Below are positions 4,412 through 64,000 of a stretch of 64,000 bases of DNA, in pieces. Source of the DNA: an uncultured Roseicyclus sp. (GTDB lineage: Bacteria; Pseudomonadota; Alphaproteobacteria; Rhodobacterales; Rhodobacteraceae). The stretch is from the NCBI GenBank assembly GCA_947494975.1, contig CANLXA010000002.1, positions 868,001 through 932,000 on the forward strand. Reading direction: 5' to 3'. Under the pieces are notes generated by a model, which ran no database searches, was not told the DNA's origin, and saw nothing but the letters and a program-made list of their open reading frames with translations. Numbering within the stretch: the first letter of the stretch is position 1; each line of letters begins with the position of its first letter. Both the position numbers and the translations under genes were made by a program.

Positions 4412-4906
4412 TCAGACCTTTCGGTCAGCGGGGCGCTCGGGCGTGGTCGCCTCGCCGGGGCCACCCGATGGCGCGCGCCCAAGGTGGGTCAGCACCGGGC
4501 GAACATCGGTCGCACGTCCGCTGGCCAGCATCACCTCGGTCAGGAGGGTGCGCAGATAGCTCACCTCCGGTGCCGCTTCGATGGCCATGACCAAGATCGC
4601 GCGGGCCGCGTGCATATCCCCGTCGGCCACCGCGATATGGGCCTTCGCGGCGGCAATTGTCGACGGAGCGATCGCTCCAGGCGTGGTTTCGGCCTCGGTT
4701 TCCGCCACAAGTTGCCGGGCCGCCCGAATATCGCCGCCGTCCAATGCGGCATGCAACCTGGCCTCGAAGCCCATGGCGACCGGCTGCTGCGCGCTTGTTG
4801 ATCCGTGGCGATCTGGCGCAGGCACGCGGCTATCGCCGCCATGCGTCGCTGGCGCGGATTGGCGCTCCGCACGCTGATCGATTTCGTTCGTACCCCTGAT
4901 AGCCAT
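4412..4906 (-). CDS. Unknown helical-repeat-like protein downstream of a CtrA site
   Basis: About 164 residues. The middle and C-terminal parts (Ala-rich helices such as ARQLVAETEAE and AARAILVMAIEAAP) look like degenerate TPR-like helical hairpins. The N-terminus is polar and probably disordered. I chose the ATG at 4906; a TTG at 4918 is an in-frame alternative. It converges on the che operon with a 56-bp gap. A perfect CtrA-type site oriented toward this gene lies about 100 bp upstream, so a motility or cell-cycle role is a reasonable inference. Confidence 0.65.
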   Translation of the reverse strand: MAIRGTNEIDQRAERQSAPATHGGDSRVPAPDRHGSTSAQQPVAMGFEARLHAALDGGDIRAARQLVAETEAETTPGAIAPSTIAAAKAHIAVADGDMHAARAILVMAIEAAPEVSYLRTLLTEVMLASGRATDVRPVLTHLGRAPSGGPGEATTPERPADRKV

Positions 4907-58652: not shown

Positions 58653-59116
58653 CGTGTCGCTCCCTCAACGCTCTGCCCCAGCCTGCAAGCGGGCGTCGCG
58701 TGATTCTGGCCAAAGCGCGACAGGGACGGTCGCAAAAAGCCCCGTGGGCATAGGTGGGGTGGGGCGCGGAACCGGCTACGGGATGTGAGCCAGATGGTTG
58801 TCGGAGGTGCCACTGTGGCGAGCCCTGGCGCCTCAGCCATCGGAGCGGCTATTGGAGAGGAATGGTGGGCGACCCTGGATCGCCTATCAGACCGGTAAAC
58901 CATTGAACGTGCTATTACCGCGCGGCGGGCGATTTGCGATTTGTCCCACCTATGAGTCTCGTAGGTTGCCGCATGTCAAAGAAACACTCTGACGCCGGAC
59001 GTGGCGGGGAAGCCGACTTTCGCTGCGAGCAAAACAGATGTTCAACACATGCGAAAGAGCGGACATCCATTGCGCATCCGACCTGTGCTGCGGCCCGCGA
59101 CCTCAGTCAAAACGGA
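58653..59116. other. Intergenic region between the dehydrogenase and the CRISPR locus
   Basis: No well-supported gene in 464 bp. The left end should hold the promoter of the reverse-strand dehydrogenase. A 34-codon frame at 58794-58898 (MVVGGATVASPGAS..., ending EEWWATLDRLSDR) reads like the tail of a protein but has no ribosome-binding site. It may be a gene remnant at the edge of the accessory region. Confidence 0.5.
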
Positions 59117-59140
59117 AAACGCGGGCCGTGGCCCGCGTTT
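59117..59140 (-). terminator. Strong hairpin terminator, best on the reverse strand
   Basis: AAACGCGGGCC (59117-59127) pairs perfectly with GGCCCGCGTTT (59130-59140), an 11-bp stem. On the reverse strand the stem is followed by TTTTCCGTTTTG, so it should end reverse-strand transcripts that start near the repeat dyad. On the forward strand only three Ts follow. Confidence 0.65.
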
Positions 59141-59163
59141 CAATGTGGTGCAATCGAGTGCTT

Positions 59164-59235
59164 GTTAACGGCTCGACCACGAATTCTGAATGTATTCTTA
59201 AGATACACATTCTCATTTGAGCGTCCAGCGGCAAC
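59164..59235. repeat. Head-to-head dyad of two diverged 36-nt CRISPR repeats
   Basis: Positions 59164-59199 resemble the repeat in sense orientation (GTTAACGGCTCGACC..., about 24 of 28 bases matching the repeat read from 63829-63864, with one gap). Positions 59200-59235 resemble its reverse complement (CATTCTCATTTGAG...GTCCAGCGGCAAC, again about 24 of 28 with small gaps). The two meet with no spacer at a CTTAAG palindrome, and each arm is exactly 36 nt. The arms can also pair with each other imperfectly. Confidence 0.75.
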
Positions 59236-59325
59236 CAACATAGAGCCTCCGGGCGGAAAAATCGCACATCGCTCGTTTAGAGCAGCGGCAACCTTCGGAG
59301 ATGGAAACCGAAGGCTGTTCTCTTT
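59200..59325 (+). ncRNA. Candidate tracrRNA (possibly a natural single-guide-like RNA)
   Basis: The forward strand gives an anti-repeat at 59208-59235 that can pair with the repeat 5' part (GTTGC, one mismatch, then GCTGGAC). The tail has a small hairpin (GCC-TCCG-GGC near 59245) and a terminator-like hairpin at 59279-59325. If transcription starts left of 59164, the repeat-like and anti-repeat arms would be joined in one molecule. The reverse strand is a real alternative, because the other arm is then an anti-repeat followed by the terminator at 59117-59140. Direction is not settled. Confidence 0.45.
59279..59325 (+). terminator. Terminator-like hairpin at end of candidate tracrRNA
   Basis: CCTTCGG (59292-59298) pairs with CCGAAGG (59308-59314). 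The stem extends through CAG (59283-59285)/CTG (59315-59317) and AGAG (59279-59282)/CTCT (59320-59323), with bulges of 6 and 2 nt. Only TT follows. Confidence 0.5.
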
Positions 59326-59506
59326 ACCGTCGACGACGACGTCAATCGAAGTCAATGAGGCCTGCGATATGTTCGGGAATCAAACAGAGTTTGCCGCCCA
59401 ATGGGCTCGTAAGCGATGACATAGATTTACAATCCGTGACACAGAAAATCTTCTTATGGAGAGGGTCGTTTGGCCTTAGATCAATGGAGTTGGTAAGGAT
59501 CGCAGT

Positions 59507-62500
59507 ATGCACACCCGTCTCGGCCTCGACATCGGCACCAACTCCATCGGCTGGTGGCTATACGAGACCGATGGCGACCGGATCATAGGCTTGCTCGACG
59601 GCGGCGTTCGCATCTTCTCAGACGGGCGCGATCCGAAATCCGGCACGTCCCTTGCCGTGGATCGGCGCGCGGCACGATCGATGCGGCGGCGGCGGGACCG
59701 GTATCTGCGACGCCGCGCGGCGTTGATGCGAAAGCTGGCCGAGGCCGAGTTGATGCCTGACGAGCCATCGCAGGCAAAGGCGTTGGAGGCGCTTGACCCT
59801 CATGCGCTGCGCGCCGCCGGGCTCGACCAGCCGCTGCCGCTCCGCCATTTGGGCCGGGCTCTGTTCCACCTGAACCAGCGGCGCGGCTTCAAATCGAACC
59901 GCAAGACAGACCGGGGCGACAACGAGTCCGGCAAGATCAAGGACGCAACAGCGCGGCTGGACCAGGCCATGATGGCCAAGGGTGCGCGGACCTATGGAGA
60001 GTTCCTGCATATGCGCCGTGCGGCGGCGCCCGACCCCACGTCAGGTGCCGTCGGTCCGCACTCGGCTGACGGTGGCGCATCGGGACATGTCCGACAAGGC
60101 GGAGGCGGGGTATGATTTCTATCCGGACCGGCGCCATCTGGAGGAGGAGTTTCACAGGCTTTGGGAGGCGCAGGCCGCTCATCACCCCGACACCCTCACC
60201 GACGATCTGAAGGCGGCGCTCTACGAGACGATCTTTTTTCAGCGTCCCCTCAAGACGCCCGAGGTCGGTCTGTGCCTGTTTGCCGGCATCGGAGACGTGC
60301 CCGAGCGTGAGCGCCGCTTGCCGAAAGCGCATCCGCTGACGCAGCGGCGGACGCTGTATGAGACGGTCAACAATTTGCGCATCACTGCGGATGGTCGCGA
60401 ACGCCGACCGCTGACGCTGGAAGAGCGCGATCAGGTCATCGGTCTACTCGACACCAAGAAACCCACAAAATCGATGGCGTCGATGGCGATGAAGCTGCCC
60501 GCTTTGGCGAAAGCGATGAAGCTGCGTCCGGATGAGCGCTTTACGCTGGAAACCGCGAACCGGGACGCGATCGTCTGCGACCCGGTCAGAGCCAGCCTGA
60601 GCCATCCGGACCGCTTGGCCCGAACTGGTCCAAGCTGGACGTGGATCAGCAGTGGCAGGTCGTGCAGCGTCTCCGATCCGTCGAAAGCGACGCGGACCAT
60701 TCGGCGGTGGTGGAGTGGCTGAGGGAAACCTATGGGCTGGATCGCGCCCATGCCGAAAGAACCGCCAACGCGCCGTTGCCCAATGGATACGGTCGGCTTG
60801 GCGAGACCGCGACGCGACGCATTCTTGCGGCGCTCATGGACGACGTGCGCACCTATAGCGACGCGGTGGCGGCCTGCGGTTGGCACCATTCCGATCATCG
60901 CACGGGCGAGATGCTGGACGCCTTGCCGTATTATGGCGAAATCCTGGACCGGCACGTCATTCCCGGTACGGGCGACCGGGCGGATGATGACGTGAAGCGC
61001 TTTGGCCGGATCACCAACCCGACGGCGCATATCGGCCTGAATCAATTGCGGCGGCTGGTCAATCTGATCATCACGGTCCACGGAAGGCCCGATGAGGTCG
61101 TGGTGGAACTGGCCCGCGAGTTGAAGATGTCGGAGAAACAGAAAGCCGAGGTCAACCGCAAGAACCGCAATAACCGGGCGGCGGCGGAAAGGCGGAACGA
61201 AGAACTTACGCATCTCAATCAGCCGCAAACCGGTGCAAACCGGATGATGCTGCGGCTCTGGGAAGACTTGGGACCTGCAATCGGACCACGCTGCTGCCCG
61301 TATACAGGCGAGACCATCAGCCCAGCCATGATCTTCACTCATGGCGACGTCGATCACATCCTCCCCTATTCCCGCACGCTGGATGACAGTTTCGCCAACC
61401 GCACGCTGTGCCTGCGCGAGGCGAACCGCGAAAAGCGCAACCAGACGCCCTGGGAGGCCTGGGGCGGGACGGATCGCTGGCCGGTGATCGAGGCGAACCT
61501 CAAGAACCTGCCCGAAAACAAGTCATGGCGCTTTGCCCCCGACGCGATGGAACGGTTCGAAGGGGAAAATGATTTCCTCGACCGCGCGCTTGTCGACACG
61601 CAGTACCTCTCGCGCATCGCCAAGACCTATCTGGAGGCGCTGTTCACAAAGGGTGGCCATGTCTGGGTCGTCCCCGGAAAGTTGACGGAAATGCTGCGGC
61701 GCCACTGGGGGCTCAACTCTCTTCTGACGGATCGCGATGCGGGCGCGGGCAAGGTCAAGAACCGGACGGATCACCGCCATCACGCTATCGACGCCGCCAT
61801 GGACCGGGGCCTTGTCAATCGCATCAGCAAGGCCGCCGGTCGTGGGGAGGAGGATGGGCTGAGTGCGGAGCTTATCGCCCGCGACACCCCCGAGCCGTGG
61901 GCCGGCTTTCGGTCAGATATCCGGGTCCAGTTGGACAAGATCATTGTCAGCCATCGGCCCGATCATGGCCGAATTGATCGCGACGCCCGCAAGGAAGGAC
62001 GCGATAGCACCGCTGGCCGACTGCATAACGACACCGCCTACGGTATCGTCGACGACCAAACCGTGGTCAGCCGCGTACCGCTTCTGTCGCTGAAACCCGG
62101 AGATATCGAGATAACATCGCGCGGCAAGAATATCCGCGATCCCTTTCTGCAAAGACACCTGGCACGCGTGACACGCGGAAAGACGACCCCAAAGGAAATT
62201 GAAGCGACTCTCGTCGAATTTGCACAGGCCGAACGACTGCCCGACAATAGTCTGAACCCATATCGCGGGCTGAGGCATGTGCGCCTTGTCGAAAGCTTGC
62301 AGGCATCGGCCAGGGTTGAAATCACCGACGCTAACGGTACGCCGCTTAAAGCCTACAAGGGCGACAGCAACCACTGTTACGAGATCTGGCGAATGCCGGA
62401 TGGCAAGCCGAAAGCGCAGGTCATCACCACATTCGAGGCGCACGGAAATTCAATCCGCAAGCCGCATCCGGCGGCCAAGCGTCTCCTTCGTGTCTTCAAA

Positions 62501-62743
62501 CGGGATATGGTCGCAATCGACCGGAATGGAGAGCGTCTGATTTGCTACGTGCAGACCATGCATATCAGCAATGGCCTTTTCCTCGCGCCACATCACGAAG
62601 CCAATGCGGATGCCCGTGACAGAGATAAAGGCAATCCCTTTCGCTTCATTCAGATGGCGGCGGGTTCCCTTATCAAAGCGCAAATCCGCCGTGTTCATGT
62701 CGATGAAATGGGCCGTCTCCGAGACCGTGCTCCAATTCATTGA
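59507..62743 (+). pseudogene. cas9: Type II-C Cas9 with two compensating frameshifts
   Basis: RNA-guided nuclease, about 1078 residues if repaired, typical for II-C. Order: RuvC-I LGLDIGTNSIGW (Asp8), Arg-rich bridge helix, recognition lobe, RuvC-II VVVELARE (Glu534), HNH DVDHILPYS (His617) with SFANRTLC, RuvC-III HRHHAIDA (His759, Asp762), then the C-terminal PAM-interacting part. The reading frame shifts +1 near 60038 (an extra base in GACCCCACG) and back near 60617 (a base missing in TTGGCC), so the unrepaired product stops at 60115. AAGGAT sits before the ATG. All nuclease residues survive, so either the damage is recent or these are sequencing errors. Confidence 0.9.
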
Positions 62744-62804
62744 CGCCAAGCGCGCGGATCGGGAACATGTGACACACTTCATGCTTGATTGAGGTGTGTA
62801 ACCA

Positions 62805-63413
62805 GTGGATCAGATTATAGATATTGCGACGGACGGACGGCATCTCTCGCGGGATCGCGGATTTCTGAAGATCTCCGAAGACGGTCTTGAAATCGGGCGT
62901 ACACCGCTGGACCAAATCGCAGGTGTCCTTGTCCACGGGCATGGAACGACCTGGTCGACCTCACTTCTGACCGAACTTGCGGATCGCGGCGCCCCGGTGG
63001 TGCTGTGCGGAGGCAATCACGCGCCGCGTTCCGTGCTGATGCCCCTGGAAGGACACCACGCCCAGGGCGGACGGCTCCGCGCGCAATGGTAAGCCAAACC
63101 CCCCCTGACGAAACAAGCCTGGAAACAGGTCATCACCTGCAAGGTCACCATGCAGGCCGCGGCGCTGGAGGCTGTCGGACAGTCGCCTGCGCCGTTGCAG
63201 ATGATGATCCGCAAGATCACGTCAGGCGATAGCACGAACATCGAAGCACAAGCTGCCCGCCATTACTGGCCGCTTGATGACACGATGAGCCCCGTCTCGA
63301 TCGCCCTGACCAAACTTGCGACATCCCTCGGGCAAAGCTTCGAGACGGGCAAGCTCTCTCTCAGCCTGCCGAGACCGCCGGACGCCCTCACCCTCTCGAG
63401 TCTGGGAGCATGA
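62805..63413 (+). pseudogene. cas1: Cas1 remnant with in-frame stop and internal deletion
   Basis: Cas1 is the integrase that adds spacers. The GTG at 62805 (MDQIIDIATDGRHLSRDRGFL) has GAGGTG at 62791-62796. The frame hits TAA at 63090-63092 (after RAQW) yet continues in the same frame with clear Cas1 sequence (KQAWK, MQAAALEAVG, NIEAQAARHYWP). It then jumps to C-terminal sequence (MSPVSIALTKLATSLGQ). Only ~203 codons remain of about 300, and the metal-binding His/Asp region between YWP and the C-terminus is gone. It cannot be active. Its stop overlaps cas2. Confidence 0.9.
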
Positions 63414-63754
63414 CTGCGCACCCCGCCATTCTGTCAGGATATCGTCTCATGTGGATCCTCGTGATGTTCGATCTGCCGACCGACACCAAACCGCAGCGCA
63501 AGGCCGCCACGCAGTTCCGCAACTTCCTGTTGGATGAAGGCCTTGAACGCAGCCAGTTTTCCGTCTACGCCCGGTTCGTGAACGGGAAGGAGGCCTTTAA
63601 AACCCGCGTGAACGGAATCGAGCGGTGTTTGCCGCCCATGGGGGACGTACAGATCCTCAACTTCACGGACCGCCAGTACCGTGATATCGTGCATTTCTCG
63701 GATCAGGGGAGACGAGCGGCCCGGAAAAACCCCGAACAACTGGTGATGTTTTGA
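63410..63754 (+). CDS. cas2: CRISPR-associated endoribonuclease/adaptation protein Cas2
   Basis: 114 residues with the ferredoxin-like Cas2 fold: RLMWILVMFDLPTDTKPQRKAA (the conserved Asp of the first strand), then RSQFSVYARFVNGKEAF and a C-terminal VQILNFTDRQYRDI. It looks intact. It normally bridges Cas1 dimers during spacer capture, which cannot happen here with a broken Cas1. Its ATG overlaps the cas1 stop. Confidence 0.93.
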   Translation: MTAHPAILSGYRLMWILVMFDLPTDTKPQRKAATQFRNFLLDEGLERSQFSVYARFVNGKEAFKTRVNGIERCLPPMGDVQILNFTDRQYRDIVHFSDQGRRAARKNPEQLVMF

Positions 63755-63795
63755 CGCAAAGCAGTTGGAAATCCATGACGACCACCCCCCCAATA

Positions 63796-63813
63796 CCCTT
63801 GTGAAAACAAGGG
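63796..63813. repeat. Hairpin after cas2
   Basis: CCCTTG (63796-63801) pairs with CAAGGG (63808-63813) around a TGAAAA loop, between cas2 and the solitary repeat. There is no T-run, so termination is uncertain. Confidence 0.5.
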
Positions 63814-63828
63814 CATGCGGCGTAGTCG

Positions 63829-63864
63829 AGTTTAGCCATTCAGCATTCGAGGTCCAGCCGCAAC
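63829..63864 (-). CRISPR. Solitary 36-nt type II-C repeat
   Basis: Read on the reverse strand it begins GTTGCGGCTGGACC, contains CTGAATGG and ends CTAAACT, 36 nt long. The length, the GTTG start and the position after cas2 fit II-C repeats. The last bases (TAAACT) resemble a -10 box, as in the neisserial II-C repeats that carry their own promoters. No second copy follows at the expected ~66-nt spacing within the remaining 136 nt, nor between it and cas2. No array can be called inside the window. Confidence 0.7.
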
Positions 63865-64000
63865 TCAGTTGTGGTGCCGCCGAGACGCCAAGGTGGCGTC
63901 GTCCAGCGCTGCAACCGCTTTGCCCTCCAGAAAGGGCTCCACGTCTGCAACTTGAAGCAGGCCGTCCGGACTGAGCAGTTTGCAACCCGGTTGCCGGCGT
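63865..64000. other. Right edge after the repeat, with two short hairpins
   Basis: Contains GACGCC/GGCGTC (63884-63889 with 63895-63900) and GCCCT/AGGGC (63922-63926 with 63933-63937). Between them GTCCAGC (63901-63907) and GCAAC (63911-63915) can pair with the first bases of the repeat, leaving a 3-nt bulge. No gene is supported here; the window ends in this stretch. Confidence 0.4.

Follow-up and report, generated by a model that had tools for sequence, protein, structure and literature searches.

The segment upstream of cas9 in a decaying CRISPR-Cas locus at the end of the window (the whole 64,000-nucleotide stretch of DNA analysed here) probably consists of a type II-C tracrRNA gene, encoded on the minus strand and pointing away from cas9, and of the remains of a long, self-silencing form of the same RNA. 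Taken as a whole, the class to which it belongs very probably represents natural single-guide RNAs through which Cas9 represses its own gene in type II-C. The evidence for the class comes from relatives, in 14 of which the 11 nt located 5' of a repeat-like arm recur, with at least 10 of 11 identities, near the cas9 start and beside a PAM-like flank. We take the feature of the window to be a relic, because cas9 and cas1 are broken there; a single repeat is left, and the guide is without a target.

A type II-C locus in decay

The end of the window carries an alphaproteobacterial type II-C CRISPR-Cas locus, with the nearest Cas9 relatives found in Rhodobacterales. Its genes follow the order cas9-cas1-cas2, without csn2 or cas4, and end in a repeat remnant, a content that is that of type II-C and not of type II-A, the host system of the named tracr-L family of long tracrRNAs.

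59507-62743, plus strand: cas9 pseudogene in three reading frames, from comparison with relative L003
62805-63413, plus strand: cas1 pseudogene, interrupted by an in-frame stop at 63090 and short of about 100 residues
63410-63754, plus strand: cas2, open frame (Pfam CRISPR_Cas2)
63829-63864, minus strand: single CRISPR repeat remnant, 35/36 identical to the L003 repeat

Relative to L003, the cas9 frame shifts lie near 60035 and between 60569 and 60641, and the residues absent from cas1 correspond to L003 residues 158-257; where the frame could be read to the end, Cas9 measures about 1065-1111 codons. L003 has an array closely after cas2, and no CRISPR array was found in a 20-kb stretch beginning inside the window and running past its end. 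No intact copy of the locus turned up among 13 genomes of the genus: apart from the genome of the window itself, the search gave nothing but a match of 74 nt in G394, a genome with a Cas9-linked region (L094) of the short-spaced type described below.

A tracrRNA gene on the minus strand

The following features, all on the minus strand, make up the region ahead of cas9.

59169-59194, minus strand: tracrRNA anti-repeat core within the 5' arm (59164-59199), from its likeness to the L003 array repeat, kept in relatives
59141-59168, minus strand: tracrRNA nexus (TTAACAAGCACTCGATTGCACCACATTG), kept in relatives; the pattern that retrieved 85 distinct regions
59109-59140, minus strand: rho-independent tracrRNA terminator hairpin with T-runs, from sequence and minus-strand fold, the same in relatives
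59200-59235, minus strand: repeat-like arm preceding the anti-repeat in the 5' to 3' direction, identified from the duplex and the 41-nt distance
59200-59227, minus strand: possible short-form (tracr-S) promoter inside the repeat-like arm, TGGACG-N16-TATCTT, a sequence reading
59236-59246, minus strand: putative 11-nt guide GCTCTATGTTG, positioned by analogy with relatives

Judged by its layout, the minus-strand segment 59109-59199 is a tracrRNA gene oriented away from cas9. Over 24 nt (59169-59192) the 5' arm shares 22 identities with the array repeat of L003 (score 40), exceeding the maxima of 31 among 500 shuffles of the repeat and 29 among 500 shuffles of the upstream region. On the minus strand the anti-repeat is followed by TTAACAAGC..TCGATTGCACCACAT and then by a GC-rich hairpin with T-runs, giving the window the anti-repeat complementary to the array repeat, the nexus and the terminator of a type II tracrRNA. 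Counting that of the window, 85 distinct regions have this layout ahead of cas9, the conservation of the tails in relatives having been judged by eye. The anti-repeat segment was present in nearly all of the 41 relatives examined, tracking each relative's own array repeat (for example, GATTTCTGAATG in L031 and GAATTTTGAAC in L008). Folding of both strands, as proposed in the earlier note, gave a result for the minus strand, where 59100-59335 is more stable than its shuffles (z = -2.86), and none for the plus strand, where 59140-59335 is not (z = 0.09). No Rfam family matched positions 58700-64000 of the window up to E = 1, and the relatives L043, L091 and L016 yielded only two sub-threshold matches to a Brucella sRNA, far under its gathering score.

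The earlier note had described two fused copies of a CRISPR repeat and a snapshot of tracrRNA birth from an inverted repeat. The 5' arm proved instead to be the tracrRNA anti-repeat, which stands alone in the 60 short-spaced regions among the 85, and the idea of a birth does not agree with an old, conserved anti-repeat beside cas genes that are decaying.

A degenerate repeat-like arm and a putative orphan guide in the window

Compared as a reverse complement with the array repeat, the 3' arm scores 30, about equal to the shuffle maximum of 31, and is therefore weak by itself. Both arms lie ahead of cas9 as the earlier note had placed them, but the description of exactly 36 + 36 nt was idealised: aligned without gaps, they agree at 15/36 positions, with their strongest resemblance in the central GAATGTAT..TACACATTC, and the pair was absent from the output of an inverted-repeat finder set to a minimum of 18 nt. 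The predicted duplex between 3' arm and anti-repeat (-18.8 kcal/mol) nevertheless beats every other sampled intergenic stretch (shuffle p = 0.033), and the arm starts 41 nt from the anti-repeat, compared with 39-41 nt in the compact class of relatives with a matched guide. When the intergenic region was aligned with those of six relatives, four of the best local alignments landed on the relatives' repeat-like arms. Measured against their own shuffles, only the alignment with L004 scored above (24 versus a maximum of 22) and that with L052 tied (25/25), the alignments with L003, L095, L060 and L033 falling below. No further copy of the arm was found in the window's own genome (29-nt pattern, up to 3 mismatches). 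The putative short-form promoter occupies the place in the arm that TTGAC-N17-TANNNT holds in compact relatives. An 11-mer, GGTTGCCGCTG, lies at the arm start on the minus strand (59226-59236) and again 57 nt further upstream (59283-59293), beside a hairpin.

The putative guide finds at best 7/11 identities in its own cas9 promoter region, with the flank TCGCTTAC and no PAM. Nor did the genome search that the earlier note had suggested for the PAM-proximal part of the guide reveal a site: the guide at 59236-59246 has no match with an NGNNNT flank in the window's own genome. The pairing of a guide with its own cas promoter beside a PAM, which characterises tracr-L, is accordingly missing from the window. 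The guide has, by all appearance, lost its target, and the circuit there would be dead or dying. Taken alone, the window offers a tracrRNA with nexus and terminator, a degenerate arm at the compact place and a would-be 11-nt guide lacking a target.

Long- and short-spaced relatives

The cas9-upstream regions of relatives were collected from one scan of genome contigs, from 394, 390 and 385 genomes (family, order and class, respectively) and from plasmids. Nine loci were left out by name (copies from the window's own genome, a stretch of that genome and the four Bacteroidales-type loci L046-L049). Of the others, 12 were removed because no Cas9 start could be recognised, 7 because they did not contain the nexus pattern and 23 as duplicates, which left 85 distinct regions. 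Since the nexus pattern served as a selection filter, this number gives no measure of how common a tracrRNA is among the loci. Anti-repeat and cas9 start codon lie less than 150 nt apart in 60/85 regions and 150 nt or more apart in 25/85; all 60 short-spaced regions contain the anti-repeat alone, without a repeat-like arm. Two later genus searches added five distinct regions, three of them long.

The Rhodobacterales-type clade comprises 64 distinct regions, including 21 long-spaced ones, the window's among them. Most of the clade has short spacing and no repeat-like arm, which counts against the main reading. The earlier note had asked whether the repeat-like arm is random in relatives: it is absent from short-spaced regions and accompanied by a matched guide in 14/21 distinct long-spaced loci of the clade, in which the guide matches the locus's own cas promoter beside a PAM, as in tracr-L. 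The other seven (the window, L003, L004, L011, L033, L052 and L100) are without a guide match, which likewise counts against, and the six of these other than the window have an open cas9 frame of more than 1000 codons.

Two records stand apart from this division. L007, filed under Planctomycetaceae bacterium PLM2.Bin2, is a 5.9-kb contig with a Rhodobacterales-type cas9 region and probably reflects a binning error. In L039 (Eilatimonas milleporae), a diverged CRISPR repeat copy lies just upstream of cas9 (4779-4806, plus strand), in crRNA orientation and apart from arrays, where it may make a crRNA-like RNA.

An 11-nt match between guide and cas9 start

Anatomy, strand, guide-target match, co-variation, PAM-like flank and nearness to the predicted cas9 promoter can all be read in the sequences of the relatives. 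We compared the guide at the arm start with the cas9-proximal 120 nt of the same locus in 24 of the 25 long regions, L011 being left out because its best repeat-like match lies too near the cas9 start. The exact runs from the 3' seed end were 11 nt long in six loci and 6-9 nt long in six more (two of 9, one of 8, one of 7 and two of 6), with 5 or fewer in the remaining twelve, while 2016 cross-locus control pairs reached at most 8, twice. With the same arm starts, except for a shift of one base in L100, a rule of at least 10/11 identities was satisfied in 11/17 loci (L010, L016, L024, L031, L034, L035, L038, L043, L060, L091 and L095). Of these, L010 comes from Pseudohalocynthiibacter aestuariivivens RR4-35, L016 from Roseovarius sp. 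A-2, L031 from Fuscibacter oryzae and L043 from Pelagivirga sediminicola. None of 1428 cross-locus control pairs reached 11, and the three that reached 10 were all between the mutually similar guides of L024, L034 and L043; at 1335 other positions in the positive regions, nine reached 10 or more. The rule was re-applied to seven later loci, two of which proved to be copies (of L033 and L038) and two short-spaced. The three new long loci, L147, L149 and L150, all fitted it (10, 10 and 11 of 11), bringing the total to 14; as they belong to the same genus as L038 and L100, they are a test of the rule rather than independent lineages.

The 11-mers vary between loci (for example, AAAGCTGGTCA, GAAGTTTATTG, AGTGCTTTTGA and AAACCTTGCTA) and agree within each locus. 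This co-variation extends to single bases, with the guides of L024 and L043 differing by one base and their targets by the same base, and likewise for L031 and L150. Past the repeat boundary, identity drops to 22/112, that is, to chance. At the other end, guide position 12 differs from the target in 14/14 matched loci, for which the probability would be near 0.018 if each of unrelated loci had a one-in-four chance of agreement, a figure that is only suggestive because the loci are related. In L052, the GGGATTGA flank is kept at the usual place beside 7/11 matches, so that this looks like a site in transition. L095, which has a similar anti-repeat, combines a 10/11 match with a spacing of 40 nt and so comes near to being a compact, matched-guide counterpart of the window.

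PAM-like flanks

Position 2 of the flank is G in 14/14 matched loci. The flanks are GGAAA-like in L031, L038, L147, L149 and L150 and mostly NGGNTT-like in the rest, with L016, L034 and L035 departing. PAMs were also sought through spacers, by comparing the arrays of six loci with a phage collection. Spacers of the L141, L033 and L013 arrays had no match in that collection; the other three arrays led to ten phage records, four of which were examined, and two matches of L031 and one of L016 were used. An L015 spacer match was dropped, as it is of low complexity and runs into the repeat. One L031 spacer is near-perfect in two phages, with flanks GGAGATCA and GGACATCA that are close to the self-target flank GGAAATTA. 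One L016 spacer matches a phage at 30/30 positions with the flank TGGGCGTC, to be compared with the self-target flank GGAATTAT; these two agree only in the G at position 2 and in a purine at positions 3 and 4, which counts against the main reading.

Putative guide scaffold and predicted promoters

In 16/16 loci, the window included, the repeat-like arm located 5' of the anti-repeat pairs with it better than every sampled intergenic stretch. The distance from arm start to anti-repeat is 39-41 nt in seven positive loci, which form the compact class, and 63-76 nt in the other seven. In the compact class, the sequence inside the arm can be read as a short-form promoter resembling TTGAC-N17-TANNNT. 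In 10/12 loci (the exceptions being L031 and L091), the -10 box of the best predicted cas9 promoter ends 3-9 nt before the protospacer, so that the target site would cover the transcription start; the predicted cas9 promoters, however, beat their shuffles (p < 0.05) in only 4/12 loci, which, like the two exceptions, counts against the main reading.

Several further elements were observed in this region. Hairpins with a conserved GTCCACA loop, or nearly so, lie between the cas9 promoter and the guide on the minus strand, two each in L010, L024, L043, L052 and L095 and others in L004, L016, L034, L035, L060 and L091; their stems show compensatory changes, with G-U pairs appearing only when read on the minus strand. 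A GGTCCA-type box occurs in 14/21 distinct long loci of the clade, the window not among them, and in 0/60 short regions. L052 (genome G312) contains a second, better preserved repeat copy (GCTGGACCTCGAATTCTGAACGGCTAAACT) between the repeat-like arm and the anti-repeat, in the place of the short-form promoter. The array repeats of kin read TGGACC-N17-TACAAT or similar, a promoter-like layout by which each repeat might start its own crRNA. Repeats of the Neisseria type II-C systems carry promoters.

Distribution on the Cas9 tree

A quickly built Cas9 tree with 63 rows calls for no fewer than 11 changes of the matched-guide state and no fewer than 12 of the long spacing; it does not distinguish gain from loss of either. 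The window's Cas9 falls near L003, L004 and L052, a position based on 202 residues only and without strong support; all three of these relatives are long-spaced with an open cas9 frame but lack a matched guide. It is probable that a type II-C lineage made up of Rhodobacterales and the kin of Cohaesibacter keeps or regains, in a patchy manner, natural single-guide RNAs that silence cas9. The marks of these RNAs would be an 11-nt guide, a mismatch at position 12, a target at the cas9 start site and, in the compact form, a repeat-derived arm serving both as short-form promoter and as half of the guide scaffold; such RNAs would then not be a speciality of type II-A.

Proposed mechanism and alternative explanations

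A longer minus-strand transcript would run through guide, repeat, anti-repeat and tail in this order, since repeat-like arm and anti-repeat share a strand, with the arm on the 5' side. In functional relatives, this long transcript would fold into an 11-nt guide, a repeat-like arm paired with its own anti-repeat, the nexus and the terminator. Presumably it is made and binds Cas9, which it would lead to the 11-nt site, flanked by a PAM, where the cas9 transcript begins. Cas9 would bind there without cutting, since the match stops at 11, and would block cas9 transcription; we infer such Cas9-dependent repression without cleavage from the 11-nt match and the position-12 mismatch in all matched loci. 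A short transcript, starting between or inside the arms, would be the ordinary tracrRNA.

The promoter-like sequence of the arm allows a more modest reading, in which the 3' arm is only a tracrRNA promoter descended from a repeat, without guide function either in the window or in its nearest relatives. Kin repeats do resemble TGGACC-N17-TACAAT, the TGGACG-N16-TATCTT of the arm sits at the place expected of a short-form promoter, where compact relatives have TTGAC-N17-TANNNT, and a target match is missing from the window, L003, L004 and L052 alike. However, the promoter-like arms of the seven compact loci are preceded by a matched 11-nt guide, so that a promoter role does not exclude a guide role, and we regard the promoter-only reading as unlikely. 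Mere chance resemblance of the window's 3' arm, for which the alignment score at the shuffle maximum and the duplex p-value of 0.033 leave some room, is decidedly improbable, given that its place, orientation and 41-nt spacing are as in the intact relatives and that no other sampled stretch of the region pairs as well with the anti-repeat.

The paired 11-mers might alternatively be operators bound by an ordinary DNA-binding repressor of both promoters, as two copies near two predicted promoters could suggest. Yet the 11-mers differ widely between loci, whereas a fixed protein site would be conserved, and they are bounded precisely by the repeat-like arm on one side and the PAM-like flank on the other, making this explanation very improbable. 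The main proposal of the earlier note, a plus-strand single-guide RNA with its guide at 59144-59163, could point to the repeat orientation of the 5' arm on the plus strand. It was rejected and is almost certainly wrong: with nexus and terminator conserved on the minus strand, the supposed guide is the nexus of the tracrRNA in kin, part of a conserved minus-strand RNA (59109-59168), and the plus-strand fold is no better than shuffles. A natural single-guide RNA stands as the best reading of the class, on the strength of the relatives rather than of the window and with the main orientation reversed, and the second-choice guide of the earlier note, the reverse complement of 59236 onwards, was in the right place, as 11 nt (59236-59246).

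Implications

In the available passages of the literature, self-repression by a long tracrRNA is described so far as a type II-A trait. A type II-C counterpart with the 11-nt logic would, if real, mean that this autoregulation arose more than once or predates the split of types II-A and II-C. The alternation of long and short forms across one clade offers a natural experiment, and the loci could supply natural one-piece guide scaffolds for a little-used group of Cas9 proteins, and would allow PAM requirements to be deduced from genome sequences only. The window contributes an example of decay: its RNA locus can still be recognised even after the nuclease gene has broken.

Comparison with known systems

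According to the available passages, tracr-L is a long tracrRNA form described in type II-A (PMC11417352, PMC12216829) and present in many Streptococcus species (PMC8730458), the tracrRNA with its long and short promoters being placed upstream of cas9 (PMC12216829) and the guide being given as 11 nt (PMC8616872) or 9 bp (PMC8730458). A review passage states that tracr-L was not found outside type II-A. In type II-C, a likeness to single-guide RNAs has been suggested for the Neisseria meningitidis scaRNA, which has another target, the efeO mRNA (PMC13431127, in the passage available); in type II-B, the scaRNA of Francisella novicida targets lipoprotein genes and needs tracrRNA in trans (PMC8730458, likewise). 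A natural type II-C single-guide RNA aimed at cas9 was found neither in the literature covered, which is weak evidence as most subscription papers and preprints lay beyond it, nor in the available part of PMC10013973.

The present class shares anti-repeat, nexus and terminator on the minus strand with the ordinary type II-C tracrRNA, which in the short-spaced regions comes without repeat-like arm, guide or target. Like the scaRNAs of F. novicida and N. meningitidis, it is a putative small RNA near cas genes with repeat-like regulatory parts (PMC8730458, PMC13431127); both scaRNAs, as far as these passages describe them, differ in being separate RNAs without a tracrRNA anti-repeat and tail and in not being aimed at the cas9 promoter. 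With tracr-L as known from the type II-A system of Streptococcus pyogenes (Workman et al. 2021, as related in passages of PMC8616872, PMC11417352, PMC12216829 and PMC8730458), it has in common a tracrRNA upstream of cas9 with a short and, here putatively, a long form, a guide of about 11 nt that matches the cas promoter beside a PAM and a match whose shortness is taken to allow binding without cutting. Unlike the S. pyogenes RNA, the class belongs to type II-C, without csn2 and with another anti-repeat, nexus and PAM, and its member in the window lacks a target; the compact type II-C loci, moreover, have a putative short-form promoter inside the repeat-like arm, and many loci have covarying GTCCACA-loop hairpins upstream of the guide.
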